This document shows positions 3,662 to 30,529 of a stretch of 47,646 nt of DNA, one piece after another; position 1 is the first letter of the stretch, and each line of letters opens with the position of its first letter. This stretch comes from Actinomycetota bacterium (GTDB taxonomy: Bacteria > Actinomycetota > Actinomycetes > S36-B12 > UBA5976), in assembly GCA_947452755.1 (NCBI GenBank), contig CANGDT010000009.1:1-47646 (forward strand), read 5' to 3'. The notes under the pieces are model-generated. The model ran no database searches, was not told the DNA's origin, and worked only from the letters and a program-made list of their open reading frames with translations. Made by a program: the position numbers and the translations under genes.

Positions 3662-5569
3662 CTAGTGACCGACCAGAATGATTGCACTTCCGATGCGTCG
3701 CTGGAAATGCGTGAGGTCAGTTGGAGTAAACGTCACAGTGACTTTCACTCGACCAGACTTGAGTTTAGTTCCTAAAGACGGCGCATATTTATACGTGCCA
3801 AGCACATCAGAGTATGCACCCAGATTCGCAGCCGCCAGCGATGATCCTTTTGGCAAATTCTTCACTGCACGTAGGCGCAATAGCCCCGTTGCGTTGGCGT
3901 TCAGGAAAGTGGCCGAGTCATTCGCTGCTTGCGCAACGAAGTTCGTTATTCCGTTGGCGCCGCCGGTGGCATCTGAAAATGATGGGCCTCGCCCCAACGC
4001 TGCATCTGCATCAATGCCAGCCCGCTGAATGTTCAGTATCGCTGCGCCCTGGGTGCCGAGTTGTAACGCCTGAGCCTTGGCTGCTACCTGGGCAATGGCG
4101 TTGTAATACAAGCTGCGACACCAATCATCAGCGACGCACTTCTTAAAGAGAATGCCATTTGCATGCGCGAAGTCTCCGACCTGACCGCCAAATGTTTGAT
4201 CCGTACCCCACGGCAGCAACTTAAACTTTCCAGCATTTGTACTGTGCAGGTAATAGTTATTGGGCGCCCAATCTTTTGTGCTGGTGTAGCCATCCCAATG
4301 ATTCATAAAATTTTCGATGGCCATTGTCGTGGCCACTTCTTTTACATCGAGCACACGTGCGATTTCTGGCGATGACATCGTTTTCGTATCAAGAGCGTCT
4401 TCAAGCGCCTGCAGGTCATTTCTTTCAGTTACTGAACCTTCGTCAATTTCAAAAGACTTGTAGGTGCGCCCAAAAGTGATGTCTGGATATTTGTCGGTCC
4501 ACAACGCCTCATATAGATGCTGTGTGCGAGGGTATTTCCACGACAAGCTCACATCGTCGTATGGTTCAAGAGACAAGTAGAAGCCCCAATAAATTGTGTT
4601 CACATAGACCGATGTGAACGACACTCGAGGAGCATCAACACCCATTGACCTAAAGAGGGTGTAACTGGCCCATTCATTCACCAGCGACCAATCTTGGACC
4701 ATGTTGTTCAGGGTCAGTTTCTTTAAACCATCAAGGCGTTGACCGGGTACAGCACCATTAAATTTGATCTTGAACGATGTTTTTCCTGGGGCTTCCAGCG
4801 TGCCAAATGACCGATAGGACCCGTAGCCCTTCTTAAGTCTGATTGTGATTGCCGTGGAATCAACGGCTTTCACTGTGACACCTGATGCATTACGTGCTGT
4901 CAGCGAAAAGCTCGCTGGTTGATACGTGTCGCCCAGGTTGCCAGTAACAAAATCAGCGACAGTCGCCTCAGGCAATGTCAGGTCGATGCGCTTGACCAGA
5001 TTTGGATCAAACATCCACGCAGAACGATCAAACGTTGTTCCCCCAGTGACTGCGCGATTGATTTTTCCTGGTGTTGGCACTCCTGCAGCCCACCCATTCA
5101 CACCTGTTGAAAGTCGGGACCACGTGATGTTTGGTGCGACTGGCGGGATTGCAACAGCATCCACCACTGCCATCTGAAGACCTACGAGTCGACCAAATGT
5201 GATCGACTCACCGCCACAACCAATGTCGAAGGGGAACGTTTTTGCAGTTGATCCGCGAAGGAAGCGGAAATATTTGTGCGGACCAATCACCGTTCCGCGC
5301 GGGATGCGACCCACATGCGTTGAATCCCACACATTGTCCACGCTGTCGGTAACTACCAAATTAGAGATGTCCGATTTGGTTGTTGCGCTTGTATTAAAGA
5401 GCTCAATCCAATCTGGTCCTGTACCGGAACATTGAACTTCGTTAATTTGGACAGTGACTGGGACGAATGCCTGCGCGGGTGCATTTTGCGAAATGGTAAG
5501 TAACGTCGGGATGAGAAGCAACGTAAGTGACGCCACTAGCAATTTAATGGGATTCCCATGCCTTCTCAT
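3662..5569 (-). CDS. Secreted lamin-tail domain plus CotH-kinase family protein
   Basis: The product is 635 residues. Residues 1-34 are a signal peptide (long hydrophobic run, then APAQA). Residues about 38-170 form a lamin-tail domain (INEVQC, DWIELFNT, a pattern that recurs in the protein at 29801-30529). Residues about 185-530 are CotH-like: KLTLNNMVQD, the strand VSFTSVYVN followed by WGFYLSLEPYDD, NNYYLH and LLPWGTDQTFG. Characterised CotH proteins are atypical secretory-pathway kinases (Bacillus spore coat CotH), so the likely role is phosphorylation of exported or surface proteins. That is inference here, because no substrate gene is evident. A short beta-rich tail follows (VKVTVTFTP). 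It is divergent from the amylase gene. A paralog without the lamin-tail domain lies at 26883-28388. Confidence 0.85.
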   Translation of the reverse strand: MRRHGNPIKLLVASLTLLLIPTLLTISQNAPAQAFVPVTVQINEVQCSGTGPDWIELFNTSATTKSDISNLVVTDSVDNVWDSTHVGRIPRGTVIGPHKYFRFLRGSTAKTFPFDIGCGGESITFGRLVGLQMAVVDAVAIPPVAPNITWSRLSTGVNGWAAGVPTPGKINRAVTGGTTFDRSAWMFDPNLVKRIDLTLPEATVADFVTGNLGDTYQPASFSLTARNASGVTVKAVDSTAITIRLKKGYGSYRSFGTLEAPGKTSFKIKFNGAVPGQRLDGLKKLTLNNMVQDWSLVNEWASYTLFRSMGVDAPRVSFTSVYVNTIYWGFYLSLEPYDDVSLSWKYPRTQHLYEALWTDKYPDITFGRTYKSFEIDEGSVTERNDLQALEDALDTKTMSSPEIARVLDVKEVATTMAIENFMNHWDGYTSTKDWAPNNYYLHSTNAGKFKLLPWGTDQTFGGQVGDFAHANGILFKKCVADDWCRSLYYNAIAQVAAKAQALQLGTQGAAILNIQRAGIDADAALGRGPSFSDATGGANGITNFVAQAANDSATFLNANATGLLRLRAVKNLPKGSSLAAANLGAYSDVLGTYKYAPSLGTKLKSGRVKVTVTFTPTDLTHFQRRIGSAIILVGH

Positions 5570-15133: not shown

Positions 15134-15171
15134 AAGTATGTCCCTAGTCGCTATCGACTGGGGACATACTT
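15134..15171. terminator. Bidirectional terminator overlapping the acyltransferase 3' end
   Basis: A 17-bp stem (one T-G wobble) with loop CTAT spans 15134-15171. On the plus strand it follows the ALDH stop by 11 bases and is trailed by ATTTAT. On the minus strand its right arm encodes the last codons of the acyltransferase (KYVPSR), and the stop falls in the loop. It should serve both convergent genes, more clearly the plus-strand one. Confidence 0.8.
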
Positions 15172-17211
15172 ATTTATCAGTGCGCCAAGCGCACCAGCAC
15201 TCTCGTGCGAAAACGTACCAGTGAGATGGTGGCGATCGTAGAAAATAATGGTTCCCTTTTTGGAAACTACTGAACATGGGTCCGATTGGCACACAATGTC
15301 AGTCGGGTCGATGAAATGAACACGAGCTGGATCAGCAACCGAATGCTCTGCTGCATAAATTGCTGAATCTAAGTGGATGTGCGATCCATCGCGGGGGTAA
15401 GAACACAGGGCAATGTGATTTGGATTCTTCGAGATGCACGTTGGGACATCTCCCAATGGTCGGGGAATCTCACGAATGACAATGACGGAATCGGTCAGTT
15501 GTGAAAGGGCGTCAAAACTTGCGGCACTCCCCTCGGCCCACAATTTCTGTCCAGCTGCCCTAGATACAACTTGTCCATTCGAATTTCGAACCGACATCAG
15601 GTAGGAATAGCTGCGCCCAACAACGATGGCATCAAGATGAGGTTGCTTTGCTAACGCAGCGAAAACATTCTTGCGCCACGTCACACATTCTGTGTATTCA
15701 CGTTTAAACACAGCCGTGTAGAGGTTTACATCCGCAATCGCACACGCTGGCTTGGTCCAGTAAAGCAGCTTCCAGTGCTTCGCTTTTGCGTATGCATCCA
15801 TTGCGGAATACCAATGCGCTGCATGGGAATCGCCTATCAACGCAACAGTCTTGTCACCACGGGGATCACCAAAAATACATTTCGAGTCCACGTTTGTCGA
15901 TTCGAAAGTGATGAAACAATTCGGGACCGCGCCAGTATCCGCGCGAGCCTTTCCGGGCGACAGCGCGACATGAGCGGTGTCGGTATTTGGTAGGAGCAAG
16001 AAAGTCGTGGCAACCACAGTTGCCACCATTGCAAGACCAGAAACGATTGACACACTCGCCGAGCCATTGAGTACTCGAGATGTTCGAACGGGTTGTTCAA
16101 CCAATCGGTACGTTGCAACTGATAGGAGAAACGAAATTACGACTGCAATAATCCGAACAGATACCTGTGGACCAGAGTCAATTCCCAGTTCAGCGTTTTC
16201 GGCCGACGACGGAAACCACACCCCGGCCAGAATGAGGCACGGCCAATGCCACAAGTACCAGCCGTACGACACGCGACCAATTGCAGTCATCGGCCACACA
16301 CTCAAGATTTGGGCAACGCCATGGCGTGTACGCATTCCCGCAGCAATCACAAGACAGGCGCCTACTACAGGAACCAGTGCAGCCGTGCCTGGAAAAACAG
16401 TGTCCCGAGTGAACATCAGTGCAGAATAAAGAATCGCAAGACCGCCCAGCATTCCGAGCGCATAGGCCATTCGCTCGGGAATGCTTCTCCAATAATTTGC
16501 GGTTAACGCAACCAAGCCACCGAACGCAAGTTCCCATGCGCGTGTGTGCAAGCCGAAATAGGCCCATGGTCCCGACGATGCCGAGGTGAGACCTGAAAGG
16601 ACAAAGGACAATGCCGCCAACAGCGTCAGACCGATACGCATGCGAACAATGCGTTGGGCTGTCGAAGCGTGGGGAAGAAAACGCGCAGATGCCAGCAGAA
16701 TTATGAGTAGCGGCCAAACAACATAGAACTGCTCTTCGACGCTCAGCGACCAGTAGTGCAATACAGGACTCTTGTCCGAGTTGCTCATGTAATCAACAGC
16801 ACTCGATGCGAAGTTCCAATTTGCCATCCACATTGCGGAAGCCCGAATGTCGCCACCGATTGCCGCACGATCGACGGGTGCATACGCGAATCGCGAAACA
16901 AATGCGGTTGCTAGCAGAACGACCGTTGATAGCGGCAAAAGCCTGCGGATTCGTCGGGCATAAAAATTGCGAATCGAGACAGTTCCGCCGTGCGTGACTT
17001 CTTTCACCAGGAGGCCAGTAATCAAGAACCCCGAAATGACAAAGAAAACATCCACGCCGACAAAGCCACCGTTGACGGCGGGGAAACCGGCGTGAAAAAC
17101 GACAACGAGAATGACCGCAACCGCGCGAAGCCCCTCAATATCAGGACGAAAAGAAAGGTGCGTGGAGGGTTTCGCTGCTGGTGACTCTAGATTGCTCGTA
17201 GCCGCAGACAC
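15151..17211 (-). CDS. OafA/YrhL-type acyltransferase 3 with C-terminal SGNH domain
   Basis: The product is 686 residues. Residues about 18-390 form an acyltransferase-3 membrane domain with around 10-11 helices (FRPDIEGLRAVAVILVVVFH, GFVGVDVFFVISGFLI, YARRIRRLLP and the WSLSVEEQFYVVWPLL motif). Residues about 430-686 form an SGNH domain with GDSH (S462) and a C-terminal DxxH (D659, H662). Such proteins move acetyl or other acyl groups across the membrane and place them on surface polysaccharides, peptidoglycan or glycolipids. The acceptor is unknown here. The start is a GTG without a strong Shine-Dalgarno and it lies inside the loop of a 13-bp hairpin (17195-17248), so translation or read-through from the upstream giant gene may be controlled there. 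Confidence 0.88.
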   Translation of the reverse strand: MSAATSNLESPAAKPSTHLSFRPDIEGLRAVAVILVVVFHAGFPAVNGGFVGVDVFFVISGFLITGLLVKEVTHGGTVSIRNFYARRIRRLLPLSTVVLLATAFVSRFAYAPVDRAAIGGDIRASAMWMANWNFASSAVDYMSNSDKSPVLHYWSLSVEEQFYVVWPLLIILLASARFLPHASTAQRIVRMRIGLTLLAALSFVLSGLTSASSGPWAYFGLHTRAWELAFGGLVALTANYWRSIPERMAYALGMLGGLAILYSALMFTRDTVFPGTAALVPVVGACLVIAAGMRTRHGVAQILSVWPMTAIGRVSYGWYLWHWPCLILAGVWFPSSAENAELGIDSGPQVSVRIIAVVISFLLSVATYRLVEQPVRTSRVLNGSASVSIVSGLAMVATVVATTFLLLPNTDTAHVALSPGKARADTGAVPNCFITFESTNVDSKCIFGDPRGDKTVALIGDSHAAHWYSAMDAYAKAKHWKLLYWTKPACAIADVNLYTAVFKREYTECVTWRKNVFAALAKQPHLDAIVVGRSYSYLMSVRNSNGQVVSRAAGQKLWAEGSAASFDALSQLTDSVIVIREIPRPLGDVPTCISKNPNHIALCSYPRDGSHIHLDSAIYAAEHSVADPARVHFIDPTDIVCQSDPCSVVSKKGTIIFYDRHHLTGTFSHESAGALGALINKYVPSR

Positions 17212-17254: not shown

Positions 17255-20200
17255 CTATGCGCGTCGACGAAGTGCCATCACACTTGCTGCTACCAAGACC
17301 AGAAGCGCTACGACAAGCAACTGCCATGGGAAGCTATTCGCTGAATTTGATCCCCCGACTGCAACAGGAGTATCGGTTGCACTTGGCGTTGGCGACGGTG
17401 TGTCAGTTGACGCAGACGGTGTCGGCTCTGCAGTCTCGGTCGTCGTGCCGCTACCTGTACCGCTACCACTTTGCGAATCAACGCCGCTGCCTTCTTCCGA
17501 CTTGGTCGAAGGTGATGGAGTTGGTTTATGCGTTGGTCCAGGTGTAGTTGACGATTTGATAGTCACTGGCATCTGGAAGCCGGTTCCACTCGCCGGCGCA
17601 AAGAGCGCCAGGTGATGCTCACCCGCAGCGAAATTAGTCGGGATTCTTCCAGACACACTCACTGCGCCTTGAGCGTCTGCGTGAGCATGACCCAACAAGA
17701 CAGGTGTAGAGGCAATAATCAGTTGGACATTTTCATCGACCTGGAAACCTGCATATGTGACCGTGAACTGAGCACCCTTCACAAGCGAGCTCGCTCCCAG
17801 TTGAGCCTCTGGCAATGCGAGTAAGTCAGCTTCAGAAATTGTCACAGCAGTTTCATCAACTAACTGCACGATAACCGCAAACGAAACAGTGACGTCCTGT
17901 GCGGCATAGTAATCGTCATCACCTGGAATCGATTCGGTAATTGAACACTGGCCGGCTGAGATAAACGTGACGTCCGCCGTAGACACCGTGCCAAGTTGGC
18001 CAAAGTTGTCGACACTACATACCTCAGGCGTTGTGGAGGTAAATATCACAGCTAAGCCTGATGTCGTATCCGCGGAAATAGTTGTCGAACCCGTCGCAAG
18101 TTCCTGATCGCTGACCACACTAGCCACAAGCGACTGCTGAGATTTGAAATTAACTCCATCGACGAAATCCAAAACCATCTGCTTACGATCCACAGCACCG
18201 GAATCACCAAAGAACTGGGTCAAAGCCAACTGAATAGTAAGCGGACTGTCAGGCGTCACTTCCCTGTTCAGATAAGCTGCCGCAAAACCACTTGCGACAT
18301 CGCCTGAAGTCGAGGTCGAGTTCACAATTCTGGAAGGCGACGCTGACATTGCAGCAAATCCGGCGATGGTATTTTCCCCATCTACTGATTCAGGATCGTA
18401 CTTGACAGACATACTGAACGCATCGGAATTAGGCACGAATGATTCGCCCGGAACTAAACCGCTGTAGTCACCCAAAACATCGACACCCGATTCAATCTTG
18501 TAGACCCGAGTGGAGCTACTTGTAGTTTCATACTCGTAACCCGTTGACACTACGTGAGTGGAATCATCCAGTGACGAATAAGTGTCCGAGACGCCGTAAG
18601 TCACGCCATCCGAAGCAATCGTTGTCACTCGTGTCAAGTGGACATTGGACGAAATAATGTCGCCACAATTTCCATCCATATTTTCACCAGAATTGGAGCA
18701 GGTGTACAGGTCAGATTCTTCAGTGACCGAAACTCGTCCCGACCGCGGATTCACATCCACACTGACCTGCATACGCTGGTTGTCCGAATAGCCCCAGTCT
18801 TGAAGCATCGCTACCGTGTAAGCATGTTCACCATCAACCAATAAATCACCGTAGTTCACGTTGCGGGATTCATCAGCGGGATCTGGCACGTTGAATCGGG
18901 TGACATACGGAACCGCATTGTGCGCCATCGCGTAACTCCACACACTCGAAGTGTTGTAGTCCCAGGCAAATGCGTTCGATTGATCTGGTTGGGCAAATGA
19001 ACCAAGGTCATTTGCAGTGAGAATCGTGCAGACTGGGCAGTAATAGTCAGGTGAGAAGTTGCTGTAGCCAGCATTACCCCACACATTAACCGTGAAGTTT
19101 GTAACGCCCCAACCGTCCGATTGAGTGCCAATTGACACTGGACGAATTGGGAATCCTGGAAGCGTCTCCCACGTATCGATTGCATGGTTTCCATGCAATG
19201 TCGCAGCCAACTTACAACCAGTTGTTGCACCATACGTATGTCCAAAGTCATTGATGATGACCGAGAACGTTGAGTCATCATTCAACGACACATCCGAGGC
19301 AAGAACATACGGATCTAGCTGTGGATCCTGCGGTACACACACCACGTCAATGGTGTCATCAGAAGCAAGATTACTCGCGACGCCAGAGACGAAATGGTCA
19401 TTGACCCCCGACTGGTAACTACCATCAGGCATTACTTCATCTACGTAGTAAGGCACCGTGCCGACGAGGTCGGTATCGGTGATTGCAACTGAGCCACCTT
19501 CGAGGCCGGTGACTGTCATCGTAATTGGTTCGGAAGCAAGTGCCAGGGCAGTTTCTGAGCCAACAGCCGAGATAACACATGGATTTGTGACACCTGTCAT
19601 CACAAGGACATTTCCACCGTCACCAGTCAACTGGCAATCGCCAGAAATCTTGGTGAATGAAATACTGGCGGTCGGATCGTCACTGATAACGCTCAGGGCA
19701 AATTCGTGTCCAACGCGCAGCGACGTAAGGTTTGAAGTTTCGTGCGAGAACTCAATGACCTGATCGGCCTTTGGCAAATCGCCCCCGAGGACGTAAGCAC
19801 TCGACGGCACGAGAGTGTTTACCTCGCCACCTAGTCCGCCATCCCAATACAGTTCAGCCCCAAACCCGCCGCCGCCCTGGAACATCCAGGCATCGATGGT
19901 TTGGCTTGAACCAGCTAGGAATGTAACCCCATCACTGGTAGGTCCAGCCATTCCGTGATAGTTCGGGTCGTTGATGACGTTTGTTCCGCTGATGTCAAGA
20001 CGGAAACCATCATCGGCGAACGATCGGAACGCTACGGTCGATGTTGTGTGGCCATCGTAAACGCCGGGCCAGGTAATTCCACCGGACCAATGAACTAAGA
20101 AGTTGTCATTCGGGCATCCTGCCTTATCCGCAAGATTCACCGCGGCGGTTTTGCCTTCAAAGCAGACCGTACGTCCAACCTCAGACCAGTCAATGACAGC

Positions 20201-23200
20201 GTTTGAGAAGTCCATAACCTTCATGTTGAGCCCAGTCTCACGATGAGCCTTAGCAACGAGATACGTCTGAGTCTTATCGAGAGCGCCATCCATATGAGCG
20301 GTGATCGTGCAATTACCTCGCGCAACGTTGCTAATTGTGGCTTGAGTGGAGCCGTCACCTTGCAAAGCTGTCGAAGTTATTTCGCATACGGACGGTGTAG
20401 AGCTCGTGAATGTCAACAAGGTGCCATCATTTGCGCGCGCTGAGAGATTGCGTGATGGATACGCCATCTGAGTATTTGCTTGCTCTTGGAATCCGATTAC
20501 TGGCGAATCTCCAATTGCATTGGTTGCATACACATCTGCGGTGTGATCGTAACTTGAGTCAACACCCTCGACGGTGCACTCGTAGGCCGGAGAACCGTTT
20601 GGTGTTACCTGGCAGGACTGTCCCCCAGGGGTCAGCACAGCGGTGTAGCTCAAAATTTCTGAACCGCCATCGTCAACCGACGCGAGCCAATGAACAGTTA
20701 CCTCTGAGCCACTTGTATCAATCGATGTGATTTCGGGGCGTGACGGCCCAAACATTGCTTCGATATCAGTGGAGCTGAAATCCTGCGGTAAGTCTGTGAC
20801 GCCGTTGCCATTACCGACGCACAACACCGAGTTGTTCGTCTTTAAAACACACGAGTTGTACCAACCGGTGTCAATCTGCAGAACCGAACCAGTCTCAACT
20901 GGGAAGTCTCGCTTGCCCCAGTCATTGTTTCCCCAACACTGGACGGAATCATCCATTTTTACTGCACAGGCAGTTCCATACTCAATAGAGACGGTCTTAA
21001 CTTCCCCTAAATCAGACGGAATGTTGTCAACGCCCCATGCATTTTCACCCCAGCAGCGAACCGTGTTATCAATCAACACTGCACAGGTATCCCAACCGGA
21101 TGGGCTGACACTCACGACTGGACCAAGATCTGAAGGCGGAGCATAAGAATCACCCCAACAATTGACTGCACCGGAAGTCAGAACTGCACACGTTGATCGT
21201 TCGCCAACCACAATGTGAGCAACGCCGGTAAGACCGGCGGGAACTGTGGCTTGACCGCCATTGCCCCTGTCATTTCCGTTGAAACCCCAACACACAACTG
21301 TGCCATCGGACTTCAGTGCGCAACCGTGATAACCACCTTCAGCAATTTCCACAACATCTGTAAGGCCATCAGGCACGGCAATACTGTTGTATTCACCGTT
21401 GCCCCAACAGCGCACAGTTCCATCATTGATTAACGCGCAGGCTGAACGCCAGCTGACAGCGACGCTCACTGCTGTCCCCAAGTCGTCAGGAATTCCGCTC
21501 ACAATGTCACTTTGGTTACCCCAACAATTAACAGCGCCGGTAAGTGAAACAGCACAGGCAGCCTCCCCTAACACCGAGACCTCGCTTGCCAGAGTCTTGG
21601 CAGTAACAGCGCGGGAGGAACCGAGATCATTCATTGCCTGCACACCAATGTGGTAACTGATATTTTTTGTTAAACCTGTGATTGTGCAGCTCAGTGGATT
21701 ACCATCAACACCGATGGTCGTTTCACAATATTGGCCACCTGGATTGGCAGTCGCGCGATACCCGATGAGTGCATGACTACCATCGGATGCCGGTGCCTGC
21801 CAGGTGACGCGAACACCACGTGGTGCACGATTTACTTCGACGCCGCGAGGAGCGCTGGGAACTGTGCCAGGATTTCCAGCCAGACTTGTCGGGTAATTTG
21901 CTCTACCGTCGTACGTGTATCCAAGACAGCTAATACTTCCGTCTCCATGAACAACACATGAGATTTCATTTTCAGTAATGGCAATTTGTGTAGTTGCACC
22001 CAGGTCCGACGGAACAGTGATGCGTCCCCAGTTGTTGTTACCCCAACAATAAAGATGGGATTGTCCATCAATTGCGCAGGCACTTTGGTTCAGTACGTAA
22101 ACGCTTTGAACGTCAACAAGATTTGTTGGTCTTTGCGAAACTAGACCACTCCAGTCGTCGCCGAAACAGGTCAACGTGCGATCCAGGAGTACAGCACAGG
22201 CTTGCGGGCCATCGAAAGCAAAATCCAGAACCCGAAGGTCAGGGTCTATGACCGGAACCGATCCCCAGCATCGAACTGAGTGGTCGACGAGAATTGCGCA
22301 TGCGCCCCATAAGCCAACTGTGACTTTGGTTGCTTGTGGCAGATCAGTCGGGACGTCAGATTCGCCGTAGTTATCACTTCCGAAGCAGACGACTGCCCCA
22401 GTTGACCTCAGCACGCAGATCACATAGTAACCAGCACTAATCGTCTCAACGTCAGTCAAAGTTCTGTAGGCAGAATTGTCGATGCTGTTACCCCAACAAC
22501 GCACTGTGCCGGCCATCAGCACCGCACAAGCAACCATGTTTGACGAGAATGCAATGTCGGCAACTGGTCCAAGGTCCGAAGGAGTTTTGAGGAGGTTTTG
22601 CCAGCTAGTGTCAACCGACCAACACAACACTTTATGGTCAGCTTTCAAACCACAGAACGAATTGCTATGTCCCGCCACCTTGGTAAATACCAATGCCTGC
22701 CCGTCGCGCGAGCTTCCAACCGCGTTGACGGCAAAAGTCCTCACAGGATAGCTGCGGCCGTTCTCAAGTCCTGTGATTGTGCAATGCGGATCGCTGATGT
22801 CAGCGGCAGCAACGCACGAATACGAGTCGTTGATTTTTGCCATGTACGACAAAATTGGTGAACTGCCGTCCGAAGCGGGCGCACCGAAGTGAACTATCAA
22901 TGCGTGATTCTTAGATTCCACATAACTATTACGCGGCGCACTTGGCACGGATGCGTACGTAACCGTATTTCCATAAAGCAGACTTGGTCCTGGAACTCGG
23001 AGTGGGTTTGTGTCTCCCCAACAACGCATACCTGAATTGGCAAGGTACTCAACACACGTGCTGTAAAAGCTCATAGAAACGCTTTGTACTTTTGCCAGAT
23101 TCAGCGGGTGTTGGCTGAAGCGGCCCGAGCCATCCCAACCCCAACAGACAAGGGATCCAGTTGACGTAACTGCACAATTGCCCCAGTAGCTGGACTCAAG

Positions 23201-26200
23201 TTGGACAACATCGGTGAGGTCCGCCGGTACGTCGAGTTCGCCATTTCCCGGGTTACCCCAACATACGACCTTTGTGGCGACTGTAATCGCACAGGCGCTG
23301 TACGGTCCAACGGAAACTGCAGTGGCAGCAGGCAGATCAACAGGAACGTTGTTGATTCCTTCGTAGTTGTAACCCCAACATGTGACGGCTCCGGCCAATG
23401 ACACGTTGCAAATATTGTTCGGGCCAACTGAAACACTCTGTGAACTTGTCACATCGCTCGGAATAGTAAATGTTGCATCGTTTGTTCCGAAGCAGTGCAG
23501 CGTATGGTCAGCAGTTGCAACGCCACAGTTAACTGCGTTGTTCCCCGACAGGCTCGACAGAGCAGGCAGGTCACTTGGCACTCTCGATCGACCGTCACCG
23601 TTATAACCCCAACATATGACCGAGCCAAGTACAGACAATGCACATGCATGATCAGATTGCGCGGAGATTGATTTCACATTGGTTAAGCCAGGTGGAACAT
23701 CAGTGCGGCCATTCCTGTTATCTCCCCAGCACAATGGGCTGCCAGCCGAGTCAACAGCACATGCATAATTCTCGTCGAAGTTTTTCACGAAGAACATTCC
23801 GCGACCTGGAACCGACGGTGCGGATGGTGTCGAAGTTCCCACACCGTTTGTTGCCGTTACGGTAAATACATATCGGGTGCCTACGTGCAGGCCGGTCACA
23901 GTACACGAATACGTTGTTGCATTCGTCGCAGGAACATCGGCACAAGATCCATCATTGGGTGTTACCTGCACCGAGTACGAATCAATTGCGTAACCATTTG
24001 ACGCCGGGGCGGTCCATTGAACCAAAACACCTGCGGCCGTATTTGTTGCGCCAACCAACACAGGTGAAGGTGGCGTTCCTGGCGTTGAAGTTATCTGCGT
24101 AGTCGGTGGATAAATTCGTCCGTCGCCTGCACCCCAACATTCAATTAATGCATCAGTGCGAACTGCGCAGTCTGCGCCATCCCAGCCCAATGAGATTTGT
24201 GTTGCCCCAGTGAGATCTGACGGAACTGTTGATCGACCCCAGTCGCCACTTCCCCAACAATCGACCTCACCGTTTTGTCCGAGTGCACACGCTGCATAGC
24301 GCGCAACATCAATCGCTGAATATGGTGCATGTCCAGTTGGAATGTTTGTGATGAGACCAGCGTTGTCAGCACCCCAACATTGGATTGAGCCTGACGCCAA
24401 GACTGCGCACCCTGACCAAGGATCCAATCCAAAGTCTGTAACAGGTGCAAGATCACTCGGCGGAGTCGGTGTGCTTCCCCAGCATGCAAGCTGCCCTTGG
24501 TCATTCAAGGCACATGATGCCCGATCAGTGGACTTTACCTTGACGATACTGCCAAAGTCGGAAGGTGTATTAAGCTGCCCTTCGCCGTTGTAGCCCCAGC
24601 AGGTAAACACGTTGGATTCGGAGACGACACAGAAGTGGTACCAACCAGCAGTGATTAGTTTGATATGGCTCAGTGTGGAGAGTTGTTCACGGTCTGCGAC
24701 CCAACCATTTGGTGTGCCCCAACAACGAACCGTGCCGTTGGTCAACACTGCACAGGCTCGATGTTCGCCTGAAATTGCGACTGCTTTCACAGTGCCCAAA
24801 TTGCCGGGAACGTTCAACACATAGTCGTCTGGATTGGATCCCCAGCACACAAGTTTGTGATCAGCCAAGATTGCGCAACTAGTCGCTCCATCCATACTGA
24901 CAGAAACGCCGAGCGCTTGGATTGGCTTGGCAACAGATGACGCTCCAACGATATTTACTGCGCGCGCTTCAACCACATAAGAGCGGCCGTTGGTCAGGCC
25001 AGTGATTGTGCACTCCAGAGGTGAAGTATCTGGGCGCACCGAACACGAATTACCTGAACGCTTTTCAGTGGCACGATACGCAAAGATTTCACTGCCGCCA
25101 TTTGACAACGATGGAACGAAGTGAACCGTAATGGACTTATCGCCAAGAATAGCCACAGCATCTGCCGGCGCTGATGGAGCTACTGCTGGAGTCGCCGCAG
25201 TTCCCGACTTTAAAGTACGGGAAAAGTTCGCGACGTTCGGGTCACCGGTGTACCCCCAACAGCGAATACCAAGACTATTTTCGAGTACGGCACACATCGT
25301 GTATTCCGTCATTGCCAGACTCTTCACCGGCGGTAAGGATGCTGGCACTCCAGAGACACGACCCCAAGGGTCAGAACCGAAGCATTTCAGAGCGCCTTCT
25401 GCGTCAACCAAACAAAGCGCGGCCCAACCACCAAAGATTTTGGCAATGCCTGTCAGGTTCGATACGTTGCTCAATCCGTAATAGGCGACGTTGTTTCCCC
25501 AGCAATTCACCGTTCCGGAGCTAAGTAACGCACAGGCGAATCCGTCGCCGACCGTTACCTGTATTGCATTATTGATGGCGCTGAAGCCACTTGGGTTGGA
25601 AATTTCATTTCCGTTGTCACCCCAACACGCAACTGTTCCATTGAGTCGAACTGCACACCAATCGTTTTGCCCCATGTACACGTCTTTTACTTCTGTGACG
25701 TTAGAGGGCACAGAAAGGTTTCCTTGGCTGCGATTACCGAAACACTGCAAGGCATCAGTCGTAGTAATTACACAAGTATCTTCAAAGCCGGTAATTACAC
25801 GCTTGGCGAGTGGGAAAAATTGTGGCACCTGCGACCTTGCGTCTGGGTAACCCCAACATACGGTTTCGCCTGAAGTCTTAACTGCACATGCATGAGCTTC
25901 ATTGTTTGCGATAGAAAGAACCGTTCCCAAGTCGGCGGGAACTGCCTCAACCCAGCCACCAAAACATTGAACTGTGGAAGCCGGAGTTATTGCACAACCA
26001 TTGCGTCGATCGAGGTACGGCATTGTGATGGCAAGTGCTGGTGCCGACGAGGCTGATGCAGGCGAGGCACCAACAGAGTTAGTTGCCACGACGTTGACGT
26101 CGTACCGAACACCACGGGTAAGTCCAGTAATTTCGCAGGTGAGATTTGACGTGGTACACGAAAACCCACCAGGAGTTGTCGTTGCTGTGTAGCTATCAAT

Positions 26201-26692
26201 TCCTAAGTTGCCACTGTCCGAAGGCGCATCCCACGCGACAGTGATTGAATCTGCATTTGGTGTCACACCCACGTTTGTGGGGGCAAGTGGCTCTAGGTAA
26301 TCAATGTTGAAATTCAGTGTCGCAGTTTGCGCTGTCGCAAATGTGTCATCGCCCGCTTGGTCACCAAGCAACGAACAAGAGCCGGGTGCGATGGCCTTGA
26401 CGACATTGTCAGAAACTGAACACACCACAGGTGTTTGCGACGTTACAACTACGTCGAGGCCTGAATCAGACACAGCAGTGATATCAATTGGCTGACCGCG
26501 GTGATATTCAGCCGCATTATTTGTCAGAGTGATGAACTGGTCAGTGGTACCAGTAGAAGCTGAAGCCTGACCGGGAAGTAGCACAGCAACTACAGCAAGT
26601 ACTGCTGAGATTGATGCAAATCCAGCAAATTTATGCTTCAACAAAATAGCCACCCCGTGAATGTGAAAACCATTGGAAAAACGTGCGTCCAA
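17255..26692 (-). CDS. Giant surface protein: five seven-repeat RCC1 propellers alternating with Fn3, PA14-like and Ig-like modules, C-terminal anchor
   Basis: The product is 3145 residues with a signal peptide at 1-46. An Ig-like module (50-130) and an Fn3 domain (131-220) lead into five RCC1 blocks at about 223-495, 592-869, 962-1242, 1336-1604 and 1704-1979. Each block has exactly seven repeats, each with a Cys pair (mostly CAV...CWG, CX9C). Fn3 domains of 85-95 residues, each with its own Cys pair before TGL, separate the blocks, and a sixth follows the last. Next come an Ig-like stretch, a PA14-like domain (about 2150-2300; WPGVYDGHT, FADDGFRLDISG, AELYWDGG), a unique region, more Ig-like modules, a Ser/Thr/Pro-rich linker (3050-3115), a membrane helix (about 3120-3141) and LRRRA. 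No LPXTG is seen. The TTG at 26692 has GGGAG 7 bases upstream; a TTG at 26644 is an alternative. I infer a surface binding or adhesion protein; the ligand is unknown. Confidence 0.9.
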   Translation of the reverse strand: MDARFSNGFHIHGVAILLKHKFAGFASISAVLAVVAVLLPGQASASTGTTDQFITLTNNAAEYHRGQPIDITAVSDSGLDVVVTSQTPVVCSVSDNVVKAIAPGSCSLLGDQAGDDTFATAQTATLNFNIDYLEPLAPTNVGVTPNADSITVAWDAPSDSGNLGIDSYTATTTPGGFSCTTSNLTCEITGLTRGVRYDVNVVATNSVGASPASASSAPALAITMPYLDRRNGCAITPASTVQCFGGWVEAVPADLGTVLSIANNEAHACAVKTSGETVCWGYPDARSQVPQFFPLAKRVITGFEDTCVITTTDALQCFGNRSQGNLSVPSNVTEVKDVYMGQNDWCAVRLNGTVACWGDNGNEISNPSGFSAINNAIQVTVGDGFACALLSSGTVNCWGNNVAYYGLSNVSNLTGIAKIFGGWAALCLVDAEGALKCFGSDPWGRVSGVPASLPPVKSLAMTEYTMCAVLENSLGIRCWGYTGDPNVANFSRTLKSGTAATPAVAPSAPADAVAILGDKSITVHFVPSLSNGGSEIFAYRATEKRSGNSCSVRPDTSPLECTITGLTNGRSYVVEARAVNIVGASSVAKPIQALGVSVSMDGATSCAILADHKLVCWGSNPDDYVLNVPGNLGTVKAVAISGEHRACAVLTNGTVRCWGTPNGWVADREQLSTLSHIKLITAGWYHFCVVSESNVFTCWGYNGEGQLNTPSDFGSIVKVKSTDRASCALNDQGQLACWGSTPTPPSDLAPVTDFGLDPWSGCAVLASGSIQCWGADNAGLITNIPTGHAPYSAIDVARYAACALGQNGEVDCWGSGDWGRSTVPSDLTGATQISLGWDGADCAVRTDALIECWGAGDGRIYPPTTQITSTPGTPPSPVLVGATNTAAGVLVQWTAPASNGYAIDSYSVQVTPNDGSCADVPATNATTYSCTVTGLHVGTRYVFTVTATNGVGTSTPSAPSVPGRGMFFVKNFDENYACAVDSAGSPLCWGDNRNGRTDVPPGLTNVKSISAQSDHACALSVLGSVICWGYNGDGRSRVPSDLPALSSLSGNNAVNCGVATADHTLHCFGTNDATFTIPSDVTSSQSVSVGPNNICNVSLAGAVTCWGYNYEGINNVPVDLPAATAVSVGPYSACAITVATKVVCWGNPGNGELDVPADLTDVVQLESSYWGNCAVTSTGSLVCWGWDGSGRFSQHPLNLAKVQSVSMSFYSTCVEYLANSGMRCWGDTNPLRVPGPSLLYGNTVTYASVPSAPRNSYVESKNHALIVHFGAPASDGSSPILSYMAKINDSYSCVAAADISDPHCTITGLENGRSYPVRTFAVNAVGSSRDGQALVFTKVAGHSNSFCGLKADHKVLCWSVDTSWQNLLKTPSDLGPVADIAFSSNMVACAVLMAGTVRCWGNSIDNSAYRTLTDVETISAGYYVICVLRSTGAVVCFGSDNYGESDVPTDLPQATKVTVGLWGACAILVDHSVRCWGSVPVIDPDLRVLDFAFDGPQACAVLLDRTLTCFGDDWSGLVSQRPTNLVDVQSVYVLNQSACAIDGQSHLYCWGNNNWGRITVPSDLGATTQIAITENEISCVVHGDGSISCLGYTYDGRANYPTSLAGNPGTVPSAPRGVEVNRAPRGVRVTWQAPASDGSHALIGYRATANPGGQYCETTIGVDGNPLSCTITGLTKNISYHIGVQAMNDLGSSRAVTAKTLASEVSVLGEAACAVSLTGAVNCWGNQSDIVSGIPDDLGTAVSVAVSWRSACALINDGTVRCWGNGEYNSIAVPDGLTDVVEIAEGGYHGCALKSDGTVVCWGFNGNDRGNGGQATVPAGLTGVAHIVVGERSTCAVLTSGAVNCWGDSYAPPSDLGPVVSVSPSGWDTCAVLIDNTVRCWGENAWGVDNIPSDLGEVKTVSIEYGTACAVKMDDSVQCWGNNDWGKRDFPVETGSVLQIDTGWYNSCVLKTNNSVLCVGNGNGVTDLPQDFSSTDIEAMFGPSRPEITSIDTSGSEVTVHWLASVDDGGSEILSYTAVLTPGGQSCQVTPNGSPAYECTVEGVDSSYDHTADVYATNAIGDSPVIGFQEQANTQMAYPSRNLSARANDGTLLTFTSSTPSVCEITSTALQGDGSTQATISNVARGNCTITAHMDGALDKTQTYLVAKAHRETGLNMKVMDFSNAVIDWSEVGRTVCFEGKTAAVNLADKAGCPNDNFLVHWSGGITWPGVYDGHTTSTVAFRSFADDGFRLDISGTNVINDPNYHGMAGPTSDGVTFLAGSSQTIDAWMFQGGGGFGAELYWDGGLGGEVNTLVPSSAYVLGGDLPKADQVIEFSHETSNLTSLRVGHEFALSVISDDPTASISFTKISGDCQLTGDGGNVLVMTGVTNPCVISAVGSETALALASEPITMTVTGLEGGSVAITDTDLVGTVPYYVDEVMPDGSYQSGVNDHFVSGVASNLASDDTIDVVCVPQDPQLDPYVLASDVSLNDDSTFSVIINDFGHTYGATTGCKLAATLHGNHAIDTWETLPGFPIRPVSIGTQSDGWGVTNFTVNVWGNAGYSNFSPDYYCPVCTILTANDLGSFAQPDQSNAFAWDYNTSSVWSYAMAHNAVPYVTRFNVPDPADESRNVNYGDLLVDGEHAYTVAMLQDWGYSDNQRMQVSVDVNPRSGRVSVTEESDLYTCSNSGENMDGNCGDIISSNVHLTRVTTIASDGVTYGVSDTYSSLDDSTHVVSTGYEYETTSSSTRVYKIESGVDVLGDYSGLVPGESFVPNSDAFSMSVKYDPESVDGENTIAGFAAMSASPSRIVNSTSTSGDVASGFAAAYLNREVTPDSPLTIQLALTQFFGDSGAVDRKQMVLDFVDGVNFKSQQSLVASVVSDQELATGSTTISADTTSGLAVIFTSTTPEVCSVDNFGQLGTVSTADVTFISAGQCSITESIPGDDDYYAAQDVTVSFAVIVQLVDETAVTISEADLLALPEAQLGASSLVKGAQFTVTYAGFQVDENVQLIIASTPVLLGHAHADAQGAVSVSGRIPTNFAAGEHHLALFAPASGTGFQMPVTIKSSTTPGPTHKPTPSPSTKSEEGSGVDSQSGSGTGSGTTTETAEPTPSASTDTPSPTPSATDTPVAVGGSNSANSFPWQLLVVALLVLVAASVMALRRRA
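20755..26023 (-). repeat. 35 RCC1-like coding repeats in five heptads
   Basis: Counting the Cys-pair units in the translated protein gives 7+7+7+7+7. Each unit is about 38-45 residues and typically reads as a VPSDL-like turn, a variable strand, C(A/V)(V/L), then CWG. On the plus strand the units appear as recurring CCCCAACA at roughly 110-140 base spacing. The count was done by eye on the translation and every heptad was checked. Seven repeats is the number needed for one closed RCC1 propeller in known structures. Confidence 0.85.
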
Positions 26693-26882
26693 TTGGAAAC
26701 TCCCAATAAAGACACATGAATTGCACTAAACGTAACTAATATTTGGCAAATAGGCGCTCAGAAAGTGCCACATACAACAGATGTATAGAATTTCTTTACT
26801 ATTCATTTACTTAAGGCGACTCACAACTACCCCTTGGCAATTGCCGAACTTTATCTCTGGTCGGGGAAACTATGCTGAGGTC
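26693..26882. promoter_or_regulatory. Divergent AT-rich intergenic region
   Basis: These 190 bases separate the giant RCC1/Fn3 gene from the second CotH gene and must hold both promoters. GTATAGAAT near 26780 and TATGCT at 26871-26876 are possible -10 elements for the CotH gene. The second would make its mRNA nearly leaderless. No convincing -35 elements or operators were found. Confidence 0.35.
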
Positions 26883-28388
26883 ATGAAGTTCCGCAGATTT
26901 TTGATATCCGTTAGCGCCATGGCCACTGTGGCGACTCTTGCTATCGCACCCACATCTGCGCAGTCAACGGTCGTAAAGTACACCGAAGGCACCGATGCCG
27001 CGTCGGCTTTTTTTGATCCGTTAAAGGTCACGCGAATCGACCTAACATCCACTGCGGTGGACAACGGACGCTCGTACAACCCCGCCCAAATCACAATCAC
27101 AATGGGCACCAAACGGCTGGGTCCCTACAACGTCGGCATTCACATCAAGGGTGGCTGGGGCTCAACTCGAGGACTTGACGGCAAGGCCGGCTTCAAAGTC
27201 AAAGTGGACTACGTTAATCCGAGTGCCACTGCAGCAGAAAAAGCCAAGCAAAAGAACCAGTCAATTTTGGGCCTCACAAAATTGACGCTCAACAACATGG
27301 TGCAAGATCCGTCAATGCTCCATGAGGCCGTCGCCTACCGACTCTTTCGCGCTATGGGAGTGCCGGCACCACGCGTTGGGTATGCCAACGTGTACCTCAA
27401 CGGCAACAACTATGGCCTGCACGCCACTATCGAAACAATGGACAACGTTTCAATGAAGCGCTGGTTCAAGAGCACCAAACATATTTTTGAGGGTTCATAT
27501 TTCCCTGATGTTTTTTCGAATGTGTGCGTCAGCAAACTCTCAGATCCAGCCAATTGCGATCACGGCATGTCGATTGACACCGGAAGTAAAACGAAGACTG
27601 AAGACCTAGACAAGCTGATTCTGATCAACCAGCTAGACGGCGCCGCGTGGTACCAACAAATGAGCACCTGGACAGACATGAAAGAACTAACCGCTTTTTG
27701 GGCTACGGAACTGTATGTCGGACATTGGGATGGGTACGTCAACAACCGCAATAACTATTACTTGCACAGTGATTCCAACGGAAAATTTGCAATGATGCCT
27801 TGGGGATCAGATCAAACTTTCGGCTGGGAAGTTGACCTGATGAACTATGGCGGCAATGGAATTATGTTCCAAAAGTGCATGCAGAGTATTCCATGCCGAA
27901 GCATGTATTCCGCTGCTGTTCTCGAGGCGTGGACCAAGGCACAAACCTTAGGGTTACCTGCAATGGTCGACAATGTGGCTGCCGCTATTGAGCCTTCGAT
28001 GCAAGCAGATCCTCGCAAAGAGTACGGCGCAGATTCAGTCCACGGAACGCAGAGCCAAACCAAGCAGTTTTTGGCCAACCGAGTTAGTTACGGCATGGAA
28101 TTAGCGCGGTCCTACGCACTTGTTTCGCCAACTATCAAGGCATCCGTAGCAAAAGGTGTAGTCACTGTCACTTGGGCCGGCGCAAAAGTATATGGAATCA
28201 CTCAACAGCGGTACACGTTGCAAAAGTCAACGGACAATGTGAACTGGACAAATGTGACATCCGGACTGGCCCTGTCCGCAAAGGTGTCCAACATTGCTCG
28301 CGGCACAACCGTCTACTTCAGAACTTTCTTGACGACAAGCCAAGGTGACACACCTTATTCAAAAGTTATCTCTGTCCGAGTTCCATAA
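26883..28388 (+). CDS. Secreted CotH-kinase family protein with C-terminal Fn3-like domain
   Basis: The product is 501 residues from the ATG at 26883 and has a signal peptide at 1-26 (ending PTSAQ). The CotH domain covers about 30-400: KLTLNNMVQDPS, EAVAYRLFRAMGVPAPRV, NVYLNGNNYGLHATIETMDN, NNYYLH and MMPWGSDQTFG. The last motif probably carries the metal-binding Asp of the atypical kinase fold, by analogy with the family. Residues about 415-501 are Fn3-like (VVTVTWAG, TLQKSTDNVNW). Compared with the paralog at 3662-5569 it lacks the lamin-tail domain. A longer frame from 26781 adds a non-signal N-terminus and was not chosen. It lies 76 bases before the DUF4956-VTC pair on the same strand, which suggests an extracellular phosphorylation role linked to that pair. 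Confidence 0.85.
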   Translation: MKFRRFLISVSAMATVATLAIAPTSAQSTVVKYTEGTDAASAFFDPLKVTRIDLTSTAVDNGRSYNPAQITITMGTKRLGPYNVGIHIKGGWGSTRGLDGKAGFKVKVDYVNPSATAAEKAKQKNQSILGLTKLTLNNMVQDPSMLHEAVAYRLFRAMGVPAPRVGYANVYLNGNNYGLHATIETMDNVSMKRWFKSTKHIFEGSYFPDVFSNVCVSKLSDPANCDHGMSIDTGSKTKTEDLDKLILINQLDGAAWYQQMSTWTDMKELTAFWATELYVGHWDGYVNNRNNYYLHSDSNGKFAMMPWGSDQTFGWEVDLMNYGGNGIMFQKCMQSIPCRSMYSAAVLEAWTKAQTLGLPAMVDNVAAAIEPSMQADPRKEYGADSVHGTQSQTKQFLANRVSYGMELARSYALVSPTIKASVAKGVVTVTWAGAKVYGITQQRYTLQKSTDNVNWTNVTSGLALSAKVSNIARGTTVYFRTFLTTSQGDTPYSKVISVRVP

Positions 28389-28464: not shown

Positions 28465-29043
28465 ATGACCGATCCAACCGCAGTGCCCGATTTGACTGTG
28501 ATTATCCCTCGCGCGCTCATTGATCTAGCCTCAATTGCTATCTTGATGCTCCCTTTGTTCTACCGCAACCACAAGCGCGCTGACCTCGTCGCCGTGTACC
28601 TCGCCTGCAACATCGGATTATTTTCGGTGCTCACAGTTTTGTCATTCAGCCCGCTGTCATCGTCAATTGGTTTTGCACTTTTCGGCGTCCTGTCCATCAT
28701 TCGACTGCGCAGCGTCCAGTTTGAGACGATCGAAATTGCATACTTTTTCATCGCCCTGGCGCTGGCCTTGACGAGCGCAATTGACTTGACATCAACAAAA
28801 CTTCCGATGGCACTCAACGCATTGATGATTGCCGTAATGGCGCTGGTTGACCTTAAGGCGTTCCGCGGGCGCGGAATTCACGCCGAAATGATTGTCGATC
28901 TCGTAATCACAAACGCAGATGATCTGAAGGCATACCTCGAACAAACGCGTCATCTCAACGTTGTGAAGTGCGAAATTCGAACCATCAACTACCTACAAGA
29001 AACAACACTTGCATCAGTTGTACTTCGACCAACGGATAGCTAG
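28465..29043 (+). CDS. DUF4956 membrane protein
   Basis: The product is 192 residues. Four or so hydrophobic helices fill residues 10-135, with the family stretch GFALFGVLSIIRLRS at about 70-85. A soluble C-terminal domain (about 145-190) with alternating strands ends the protein. DUF4956 has no established function that I know of. From memory, its genes often neighbour VTC-domain and CotH genes in other bacteria, as here. AGGAG precedes the ATG by 6 bases, and the VTC gene starts 6 bases after its stop, so the two are co-transcribed. A membrane partner or channel for the polyphosphate-type product is a reasonable hypothesis, not shown. Confidence 0.85.
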   Translation: MTDPTAVPDLTVIIPRALIDLASIAILMLPLFYRNHKRADLVAVYLACNIGLFSVLTVLSFSPLSSSIGFALFGVLSIIRLRSVQFETIEIAYFFIALALALTSAIDLTSTKLPMALNALMIAVMALVDLKAFRGRGIHAEMIVDLVITNADDLKAYLEQTRHLNVVKCEIRTINYLQETTLASVVLRPTDS

Positions 29044-29049
29044 GCGACC

Positions 29050-29826
29050 GTGTCTCCTCTAGACACATCGGGTTTAGCACCAACAAGCCTGGCTCAGATA
29101 GACGAGCAATGGTTCAATGTCCAGCGATTCGATAAGAAGTTTGTTGTTGGTATTACTACTGTCAAAGCGTTTATCGATGACCATAAAGATGTGCTTACCG
29201 TCCTAGATATCGAAGGACTTCGCACTTTTCACTATGTCACTGAATATTTTGATACACCGGAACTTGCCTTTTACCGTGATCACTACATGCGACGTAAACG
29301 CAGGCTTAAAGTACGCATCCGGCACTATACGGATAGTCATCGTTCGCAGTGCGAAGTCAAGGCTCGCGACGGCAAGGCGCTGACGACAAAATTCGTACTC
29401 CCCAATACGGAAAAATTTGAAGGTCCGGCTCAAGAGTTTGTGAGCGACACTGCCGACATGCTGAACATGTCAGATAGATTCGTCGGATCGCCCTCAAACC
29501 TGATTCATTCAGCCACCACAACGTTTGACCGCGTCACCATAAACCGGACTGATTGTGCCGAAAAAATCACTATAGACATGAACTTCCAAATCACTGCTGG
29601 TTCACACACAATGTCGAGCTTTCCACACGTAGCACTTGTTGAAGTGAAATCGACGACGAGACGCACTCGCACACAATCAGACTTCGCGCTTCTGGACGTA
29701 TTCCCAACAAGTTTCAGTAAGTACGCATCAGCCCTTGACATTCTCGTTTCAGCCCGACCGAGAGTTAATTCTCGACGTGTTCTTCAACGAGTGTTTGGTC
29801 CTACTTCGTCACAATTGAAATCGTGA
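29050..29826 (+). CDS. VTC-domain polyphosphate polymerase-like protein
   Basis: The product is 258 residues from a GTG start. The VTC/CYTH-like tunnel-fold motifs are in order: FDKKFVV (about 19-25), YFDT, the basic strand RRKRRLKVRIRHY, CEVKARDGK, EKITIDMNF, VALVEVKS and TSFSKYASAL. The Lys/Arg and acidic residues lining the active tunnel of yeast Vtc4 are present as a pattern. Vtc4 makes polyphosphate from ATP. Bacterial members are predicted to do likewise, but few have been tested. No SPX domain or membrane segment is visible, so it probably works with the DUF4956 protein encoded just upstream. Its 3' end overlaps the convergent lamin-tail gene by 26 bases. Confidence 0.85.
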   Translation: MSPLDTSGLAPTSLAQIDEQWFNVQRFDKKFVVGITTVKAFIDDHKDVLTVLDIEGLRTFHYVTEYFDTPELAFYRDHYMRRKRRLKVRIRHYTDSHRSQCEVKARDGKALTTKFVLPNTEKFEGPAQEFVSDTADMLNMSDRFVGSPSNLIHSATTTFDRVTINRTDCAEKITIDMNFQITAGSHTMSSFPHVALVEVKSTTRRTRTQSDFALLDVFPTSFSKYASALDILVSARPRVNSRRVLQRVFGPTSSQLKS

Positions 29827-30529
29827 CAACTTTCGCGCCAAAAGTTCCAACAAGCTTTACTTGAATCGCTTTTGATCCAGCCTTAGCGGACAAAGACTTC
29901 ACACTTCCCGACGCCGATACAGATACTCCGGGCACTGCATGGACAAGGCTGTACGTGGTCACATTCTTACCTTTGAGTACGAAGGAACAGGACTTACCTC
30001 GTGCACATTTGATAGACGCAGAGCTCACAAGTTGTGGCATTGCAGAATTGTTCGCTGCACCTTTAGTTCCGAATGTGAAACCAAAAGGACCTGTTCCACT
30101 TGGGAAGCGTCCGTAACTCGCATTTGCAGGAATCGGTGGCACAAGAACTTTGTCAACAATTGTGAATAGTGCACCAGCGCTTGGCTTGCCCAAATAAACA
30201 GTCTGGCCACCGGCACACGGAACCCCGAACGGTAAGTGAGCGTTCCCTACCCCACTTTGCTGAACTGCAACACTTCGCTTGGCGGCGAGCACAGTTCCTG
30301 TCGGAAATATGTACCGGTGGGATGCCTTGGCAAGGTTAGGTGCGTGATCGGAAAGTATCCAACCAGAAATATTGACCGGCTTCGTGGTGGTGTTCGCGAC
30401 TTCTAGCCAATCGTTTCCGTGGCAGTCGATTTCGTTGATGACAACTGTGCTTGCGGCCGCATGAGCCAAAACACTGAATGACCCATTCAACAAAGTGGCA
30501 GTCATAACCACCATGAGTAATCGACGCAT
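29801..30529 (-). CDS. Secreted lamin-tail domain protein
   Basis: The product is 242 residues. A signal peptide covers residues 1-25 (ending AHAA). A lamin-tail domain covers about 28-155: VVINEIDCHGNDWLEVANT, ISGWILSDH, a YIFPTGT strand and NASYGRFPSG. A beta-rich tail (165-242) includes a Cys pair (KCARGKSC). Lamin-tail domains in bacteria are extracellular and often sit with nucleases or CotH proteins. No catalytic motif is seen, so a binding or scaffold role is more likely. The domain matches the N-terminal part of the CotH protein at 3662-5569. It converges on the VTC gene with an overlap, so it is next to, but not in, that operon. Confidence 0.8.
   Translation of the reverse strand: MRRLLMVVMTATLLNGSFSVLAHAAASTVVINEIDCHGNDWLEVANTTTKPVNISGWILSDHAPNLAKASHRYIFPTGTVLAAKRSVAVQQSGVGNAHLPFGVPCAGGQTVYLGKPSAGALFTIVDKVLVPPIPANASYGRFPSGTGPFGFTFGTKGAANNSAMPQLVSSASIKCARGKSCSFVLKGKNVTTYSLVHAVPGVSVSASGSVKSLSAKAGSKAIQVKLVGTFGAKVVTISIVTK

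Follow-up and report, generated by a model that had tools for sequence, protein, structure and literature searches.

Gene and Domain Organization

The window, the whole 47,646-nucleotide stretch of DNA that was analyzed, carries on its minus strand a single unbroken ORF of 3145 codons (17255–26692) that encodes a giant surface protein; all modules described below lie on that strand. Translation plausibly begins at a TTG codon with GGGAG positioned 7 nt upstream, and an in-frame GTG at codon 14 (26653) is an alternative start. The N-terminal hydrophobic stretch (residues 14–46, ...LLKHKFAGFASISAVLAVVAVLLPGQASAS; 26555–26653) is probably a signal peptide. At the other end of the protein, a Ser/Thr/Pro/Gly-rich linker (residues 3046–3118; 17339–17557) leads to a C-terminal transmembrane helix (residues 3121–3141; 17270–17332) that is followed by RRRA. 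The C-terminal sequence reads without an LPXTG motif before this helix, and the protein ends in a plain transmembrane segment and RRRA rather than in the manner of a sortase-anchored adhesin. An ortholog in a second genome of the genus (G007) lacks the transmembrane helix and finishes in an Fn3 and an Ig-like stretch instead, which shows that the membrane anchor is not conserved.

In terms of repeat content, scanning the protein directly for the motif yields 35 C-x(10,11)-C-W/F-G repeats grouped 7+7+7+7+7, spaced by 34–44 residues within a block and by 134–139 residues between blocks. All 35 repeats carry the Cys pair, mostly with X9 when counted strictly between the cysteines and with up to X10, and in some of them the W of the motif is swapped for F, L, or V. 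Pfam assigns the protein to RCC1_2 (PF13540, E 3.7e-74) and to the RCC1-like domain PF25390 (E 4.2e-48), and fn3 (PF00041) is matched over the whole protein with E 3.5e-54, 181 bits against a cut-off of 25. RCC1_2 is matched 12 times in the genome assembly (1.73 Mb), each time inside this ORF. With a repeat HMM and an Fn3 HMM built from the protein's own repeats and inter-block segments, six Fn3 domains and five seven-repeat blocks (R7) alternate strictly, with no overlap and with linkers of 0–10 residues. The blocks qualify as RCC1-like seven-bladed β-propellers by their repeat models, their exact count of seven, and the predicted fold.

The protein starts after the hydrophobic stretch with an Ig-like (Big-like) domain containing one Cys pair (residues 47–133; 26294–26554; 34% identical to G007), which resembles in sequence the Big-like domain at residues 2861–2940. 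The first Fn3 domain, F1 (residues 134–219; 26036–26293; detected by Pfam and, at 134–219, by our own HMM), precedes propeller P1 (type A, residues 220–494; 25211–26035; R7 221–487), whose seven repeats are of the RCC1/crinkly type. F2 (residues 495–592; 24917–25210; own HMM 498–592) is followed by P2 (type B, residues 593–868; 24089–24916; R7 596–864), and F3 (residues 869–964; 23801–24088; Pfam and own HMM, 869–964) by P3 (type A, residues 965–1240; 22973–23800; R7 969–1235). F4 (residues 1241–1333; 22694–22972; own HMM 1242–1334), P4 (type B, residues 1334–1606; 21875–22693; R7 1336–1604), F5 (residues 1607–1699; 21596–21874; own HMM 1607–1700), P5 (type B, residues 1700–1974; 20771–21595; R7 1701–1972), and F6 (residues 1975–2072; 20477–20770; own HMM 1975–2072) complete the series. 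Each propeller has seven repeats and is defined by motif scan, HMM, and tree, to which a structural model adds for P3 and P4 and Pfam for P5.

The initial annotation had described 35 RCC1-like repeats in five groups of seven, each group bracketed by Fn3 domains; motif scan, own HMMs, and Pfam agree on this arrangement, and none of the RCC1 boundaries in the own-HMM domain calls crosses an Fn3 segment. The order of the proposed string, (Fn3-propeller)x5-Fn3, likewise holds, with the amendment that an Ig-like domain also precedes F1.

C-terminal to F6, an Ig-like domain with a Cys pair (residues 2073–2155; 20228–20476) was assigned by sequence resemblance and is 36% identical to its counterpart in G007. 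It is followed by a PA14-like domain (residues 2156–2320; 19733–20227), by a conserved region delimited by comparison with G007 (residues 2321–2860; 18113–19732) that has no Pfam match, and by a Big-like Ig domain with a Cys pair (residues 2861–2940; 17873–18112; 42% identical to G007), for which PF22359 scores below its cut-off. A profile comparison that matches RsgI3 (structure 6qe7, E 2e-13) backs the PA14-like assignment made at the outset; the Pfam PA14 model is matched in the G007 ortholog only, with an E-value of 0.00097 that is below cut-off. Structure prediction for residues 2156–2860 from a two-row alignment gave a pLDDT of 33.

Conservation of Layout and Cysteines in an Ortholog

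The ortholog in G007, a genome of the same genus (contig 11, L051), is an ORF of 3265 aa with the order F R7 F R7 F R7 F R7 F R7 F. Identity per module between the two proteins is 29–46% in the Fn3/propeller part, with the propellers at 31–40%, and reaches 54% in the PA14-like part, the best conserved region. The presence of the same five blocks of seven in an ortholog of ~37% identity, together with blocks across the phylum that mostly count 7, 14, or 21 repeats, excludes chance, and the architecture of five propellers and six Fn3 domains is almost certainly correct.

The cysteines follow a stricter pattern. There are exactly 14 in every one of the five propellers and exactly 2 in every Fn3 domain, and all 98 cysteines of the giant protein (98/98) align to cysteines in the ortholog, which has just 4 additional ones; identity at the other propeller and Fn3 positions is 34%. 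Against that background, the complete conservation argues strongly, by comparison, that the Cys pairs form disulfides, and one disulfide in each blade, each Fn3 domain, and each Ig domain is strongly implied by the sequences.

Predicted Structure and Comparison with Known Propellers

AlphaFold2 was run on F3-P3-F4-P4-F5 (832 aa, 4-row alignment). The model has a mean pLDDT of 71, values of ~80–90 in the propellers, and a pTM of 0.42. Closure at seven blades, as the initial annotation had assumed, is supported by the predicted strands, 7 × 3 in P4 and 20–21 in P3, and by the clustering of relatives' blocks at 7, 14, and 21 repeats. The same annotation had pictured a heavily disulfide-stapled extracellular rod. 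The conservation of 98/98 cysteines strengthens the stapling; the low pTM means that the geometry between domains is predicted with little confidence, and the rod is a shape that we infer.

Foldseek matches the model to BLIP-II (one propeller, target-normalized TM 0.77, rmsd 2.5 Å over ~250 residues) and to the CRINKLY ectodomain of ACR4 (target-normalized TM 0.75), with UVR8 and RCC1 also matched. The ectodomain of CRINKLY4/ACR4 (PDB 7a0j, 7a0k) has seven ~39-residue RCC1-related repeats with C(X10)CWG and three-stranded blades, and the Cys-paired repeats of the giant protein, seven per block, are of this kind. It is also extracellular, with one putative disulfide per blade and a single-pass transmembrane segment (PMC4617170), as is predicted for the giant protein. 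CRINKLY4 differs in having a single propeller together with a kinase and a Cys-rich domain of TNFR-like type, whereas the giant protein has five propellers and Fn3 spacers. No TNFR-like or Ser/Thr kinase domain is matched by Pfam across the 3145 aa, which places the giant protein outside the CRINKLY4 family and leaves the propeller type as what the two share.

BLIP-II (PDB 1jtd, 3qhy, 3qi0) is, like the giant protein, secreted, actinobacterial, and seven-bladed, with ~39-residue blades at 25% identity, but it is a single soluble domain that has neither spacers nor an anchor, and its blades have no Cys pairs (PMC4617170 states that they are missing from the template structures). The best Foldseek E-values of the two-unit model belong to the ROS1 and Sevenless ectodomains, with a global TM of merely 0.16–0.18. 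These receptors (PDB 9ozi, 9pwq, 9bfp; PMC11743138) are likewise membrane-anchored surface proteins in which propellers and Fn3 domains are interleaved; they differ in having three YWTD propellers and nine Fn3 domains without strict alternation and in being animal receptor kinases. As judged from the model, the likeness is one of analogy in plan, neither superposition nor homology. Ran GEF activity, the function of RCC1 proper, is not expected of a secreted bacterial protein.

Aromatic residues are enriched at two positions of the repeat loops (26–34% versus 8% background). This enrichment was set aside as evidence for a binding face, as the consensus of the RCC1_2 family shows it too.

Two Types of Propeller

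In MAFFT alignments of two-unit segments, rows were shifted by one unit, which gave a first hint that propellers of two kinds alternate. In a maximum-likelihood tree of 24 propellers, including P1–P5 of both species and those of a more distant relative (G111), P1 and P3 from the two species form one clade (type A, support 99/98), and P2, P4, and P5 from the two species form a second (type B, support 100/99). F2 and F4 cluster as well, at a lower support of 83/81. Propeller identities are mostly 30–42% within a type (27% for one pair) and 21–28% between types, and the order A-B-A-B-B is the same in the giant protein and in G007. By its sequence relationships, the array looks like the product of duplicating an Fn3-A-Fn3-B block and adding one more B unit. 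On whether the copies of this block are orthologous or have been homogenized within each species, informative sites divide into 17 within species, 6 orthologous, and 10 crossed.

Distribution and Relatives

A survey of 166 genomes of the order finds the five-unit layout in the window genome and in G007 alone. With 2 of the 23 genomes of the genus carrying it, some of the 23 being incomplete, the gene is accessory. A phage origin was considered and rejected, the viral matches amounting to one weak Fn3-only contig and single-propeller phage genes.

Similar in plan is a protein from another family of the same order (G111, L108) that is organized as (Fn3-R7)x3-Fn3-Fn3, the first repeat of its third block being hidden under an Fn3 match and read by eye. 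It shares the strict alternation of Fn3 domains and seven-repeat blocks but has three units, ~57-residue classical RCC1 blades, and Fn3 domains that lack Cys pairs. In the tree, its propellers form a group distinct from A and B, which suggests a separate amplification. Many other ORFs combine a single R7 with several Fn3 domains. Eight RCC1 repeats followed by Fn3 domains are found in G004 (L129 1636–4398, minus strand), and G007 encodes a second large RCC1 protein of 1876 aa (L127 748–6375, minus strand), in which a single propeller at the C-terminus accompanies many Ig-like repeats.

Elsewhere in the phylum, spacer-free ORFs have 14 or 21 repeats (G478, G573, G748, G854, G696); those of L148 (G854 contig 29) and L152 (G696 contig 7) contain 21 RCC1-type repeats, that is, three propellers back to back, and several others have 14. 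Outside it, among annotated public records, a 2935-aa plasmid protein of Chlorohelix allophototropha (Chloroflexota; WP_341472172, L132 4053–12860) is built as (Ig-R7)x3, with blades that lack the Cys pair and near-identical Ig-like spacers, and Acidovorax WP_338799355 has 14 repeats. These poly-propeller proteins (G478, G573, G854, G696, Acidovorax, Chlorohelix) share with the giant protein several short-blade seven-repeat propellers per chain and differ in being spacer-free or Ig-spaced and in having fewer propellers. Blocks of 8, 13, 15, and 16 are exceptions to the sevens. That repeat counts cluster at multiples of seven supports the closed seven-bladed disc as the unit of amplification.

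The initial annotation knew of no described protein with this exact layout. That view has to be narrowed, as the exact layout also occurs in G007, and other lineages share its principle, as do, by analogy, the ROS1 and Sevenless receptors of animals; the giant protein is an unusually long and orderly case of it. The literature searched, a partial coverage that makes weak evidence, yielded no description of the five-unit Fn3/propeller layout. The repeat type, the fold, and the alternation of propellers with β-sandwich spacers are known already. New is a five-unit, two-type, fully Cys-conserved alternation with Fn3.

Genomic Neighborhood

Divergent from the giant gene lie three plus-strand genes, for a secreted CotH-family kinase-like protein (26781–28388), a DUF4956 membrane protein (28465–29043), and a VTC-domain protein of the polyphosphate polymerase family (29050–29826), followed by a convergent minus-strand gene for a secreted Lamin-tail-domain (LTD) protein (29801–30529). 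All four were assigned by Pfam, and the arrangement is the same in both genomes that have the giant gene. In the alignment with Bacillus subtilis CotH, the neighbor has DGYVNN where the B. subtilis protein has DGFVHN, and GSDQTFG where it has DYDATWG, with the D retained in each motif. In two further genomes (G012 and G022), the CotH-DUF4956-VTC-LTD operon occurs with no adjacent giant gene, which indicates that the giant gene lies beside the operon and is not part of it. A DHDPS-like gene that comes after the giant gene in G007 sits right beside CotH in G022 (L119 3539–4598 versus L110 572–1477). This junction is apparently the empty site of the giant gene, which would then have been gained or lost as a unit. 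A tight functional link between the giant gene and the CotH operon, considered as a candidate, is weakened by G012 and G022.

Directly downstream of the giant gene is a gene for an acyltransferase-3/SGNH protein of the surface glycan O-acylation type (15151–17211, minus strand). A second CotH-family gene in the window (3662–5569, minus strand) is fused to a lamin-tail domain, and a relative of it in G011 (L117, 57% identity) lies ~4 kb from an Fn3-R7 protein.

Discussion

By analogy with known propellers, we propose that the giant protein is probably a secreted, type I membrane-anchored, multivalent surface binder, a putative adhesin or receptor stalk. The Ser/Thr/Pro stretch would cross the wall, with the propellers directed outward; their faces would each bind a ligand, either protein or glycan, and the Fn3 domains would space them. 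In this way, the string would fasten the cell with high avidity to matrix, particles, or other cells. The disulfide staples would suit the discs to the cell exterior, and types A and B may bind different partners. BLIP-II, a tight protein binder, shows by analogy that the same blade type can make tight protein-binding faces. In the type IV pili of Saccharibacteria, PilX2 bears a seven-bladed RCC1 propeller; T4P-2 function depends on PilX2, which was proposed as the host-tethering adhesin (PMC12206443). Proteins of Hepatoplasmataceae with RCC1 propellers and Ig-like domains have been discussed as possible host-interaction proteins (PMC10928387). The surface or secreted products encoded around the giant gene (CotH, LTD, and AT3-SGNH) were also counted in favor of binding. 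A more elaborate version, in which the A and B types each recognize a different ligand, would make the protein a bispecific, multivalent bacterial counterpart of the ROS1-like string, with an order and Fn3 partners (F2 and F4 before B) that predate the species split; we hold this to be a doubtful extension.

Other conceivable functions are an S-layer-like structural role or carbohydrate processing through the PA14-like module. In the latter case, the PA14-like module and residues 2321–2860 would act, by glycan binding or hydrolysis, and the propellers would be a passive stalk of a carbohydrate- or matrix-processing scaffold. The PA14-like part is indeed better conserved between the orthologs (54%) than are the propellers, and its structural match, RsgI3, is a member of a carbohydrate-sensor family. 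However, no glycosidase or other enzyme family is matched in the C-terminal half, and a passive stalk has no need of two conserved types kept in the order A-B-A-B-B in two species, which makes this reading unlikely. We consider it rather improbable that the Ser/Thr-rich giant protein is instead a substrate or partner of the CotH-like kinase and VTC/DUF4956, phosphorylated or decorated as part of a surface coat or matrix. The divergent adjacency in both genomes and the two retained CotH aspartates speak for it, as does the occurrence of CotH, polyphosphate polymerase, and DUF4956 genes as companions of exopolysaccharide loci in other Gram-positives (PMC7112168); the operons that stand alone in G012 and G022 and the apparent empty site in the latter speak against it, and both adjacent cases may stem from one ancestral insertion. 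That the array is an assembly artefact, or a neutral repeat expansion with no ordered function, is hardly credible: repeats can mislead assembly, and this draft is in 66 contigs, but the propeller units, at 21–42% identity, are too divergent for collapse or expansion, and the independent genome G007 has the same layout with every cysteine conserved.

Here, bacteria with small genomes (1–2 Mb) devote nearly 10 kb to one ordered string of closed propellers. The protein was apparently built by copying whole Fn3-propeller blocks and offers a clear natural example of amplification by propeller rather than by blade. Its Cys-paired blade type is that of the plant CRINKLY4 receptors, which provides relatives for comparison with the CRINKLY4 ectodomain. 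If types A and B do bind different ligands, the array would constitute a readable, modular bacterial recognition system.

Apart from the cellular genomes, a seven-repeat RCC1 propeller that stands alone (ATN93310, L135 3908–4804) is encoded amid hypothetical genes of Marinobacter phage PS6; it is possibly a receptor-binding or tail part.
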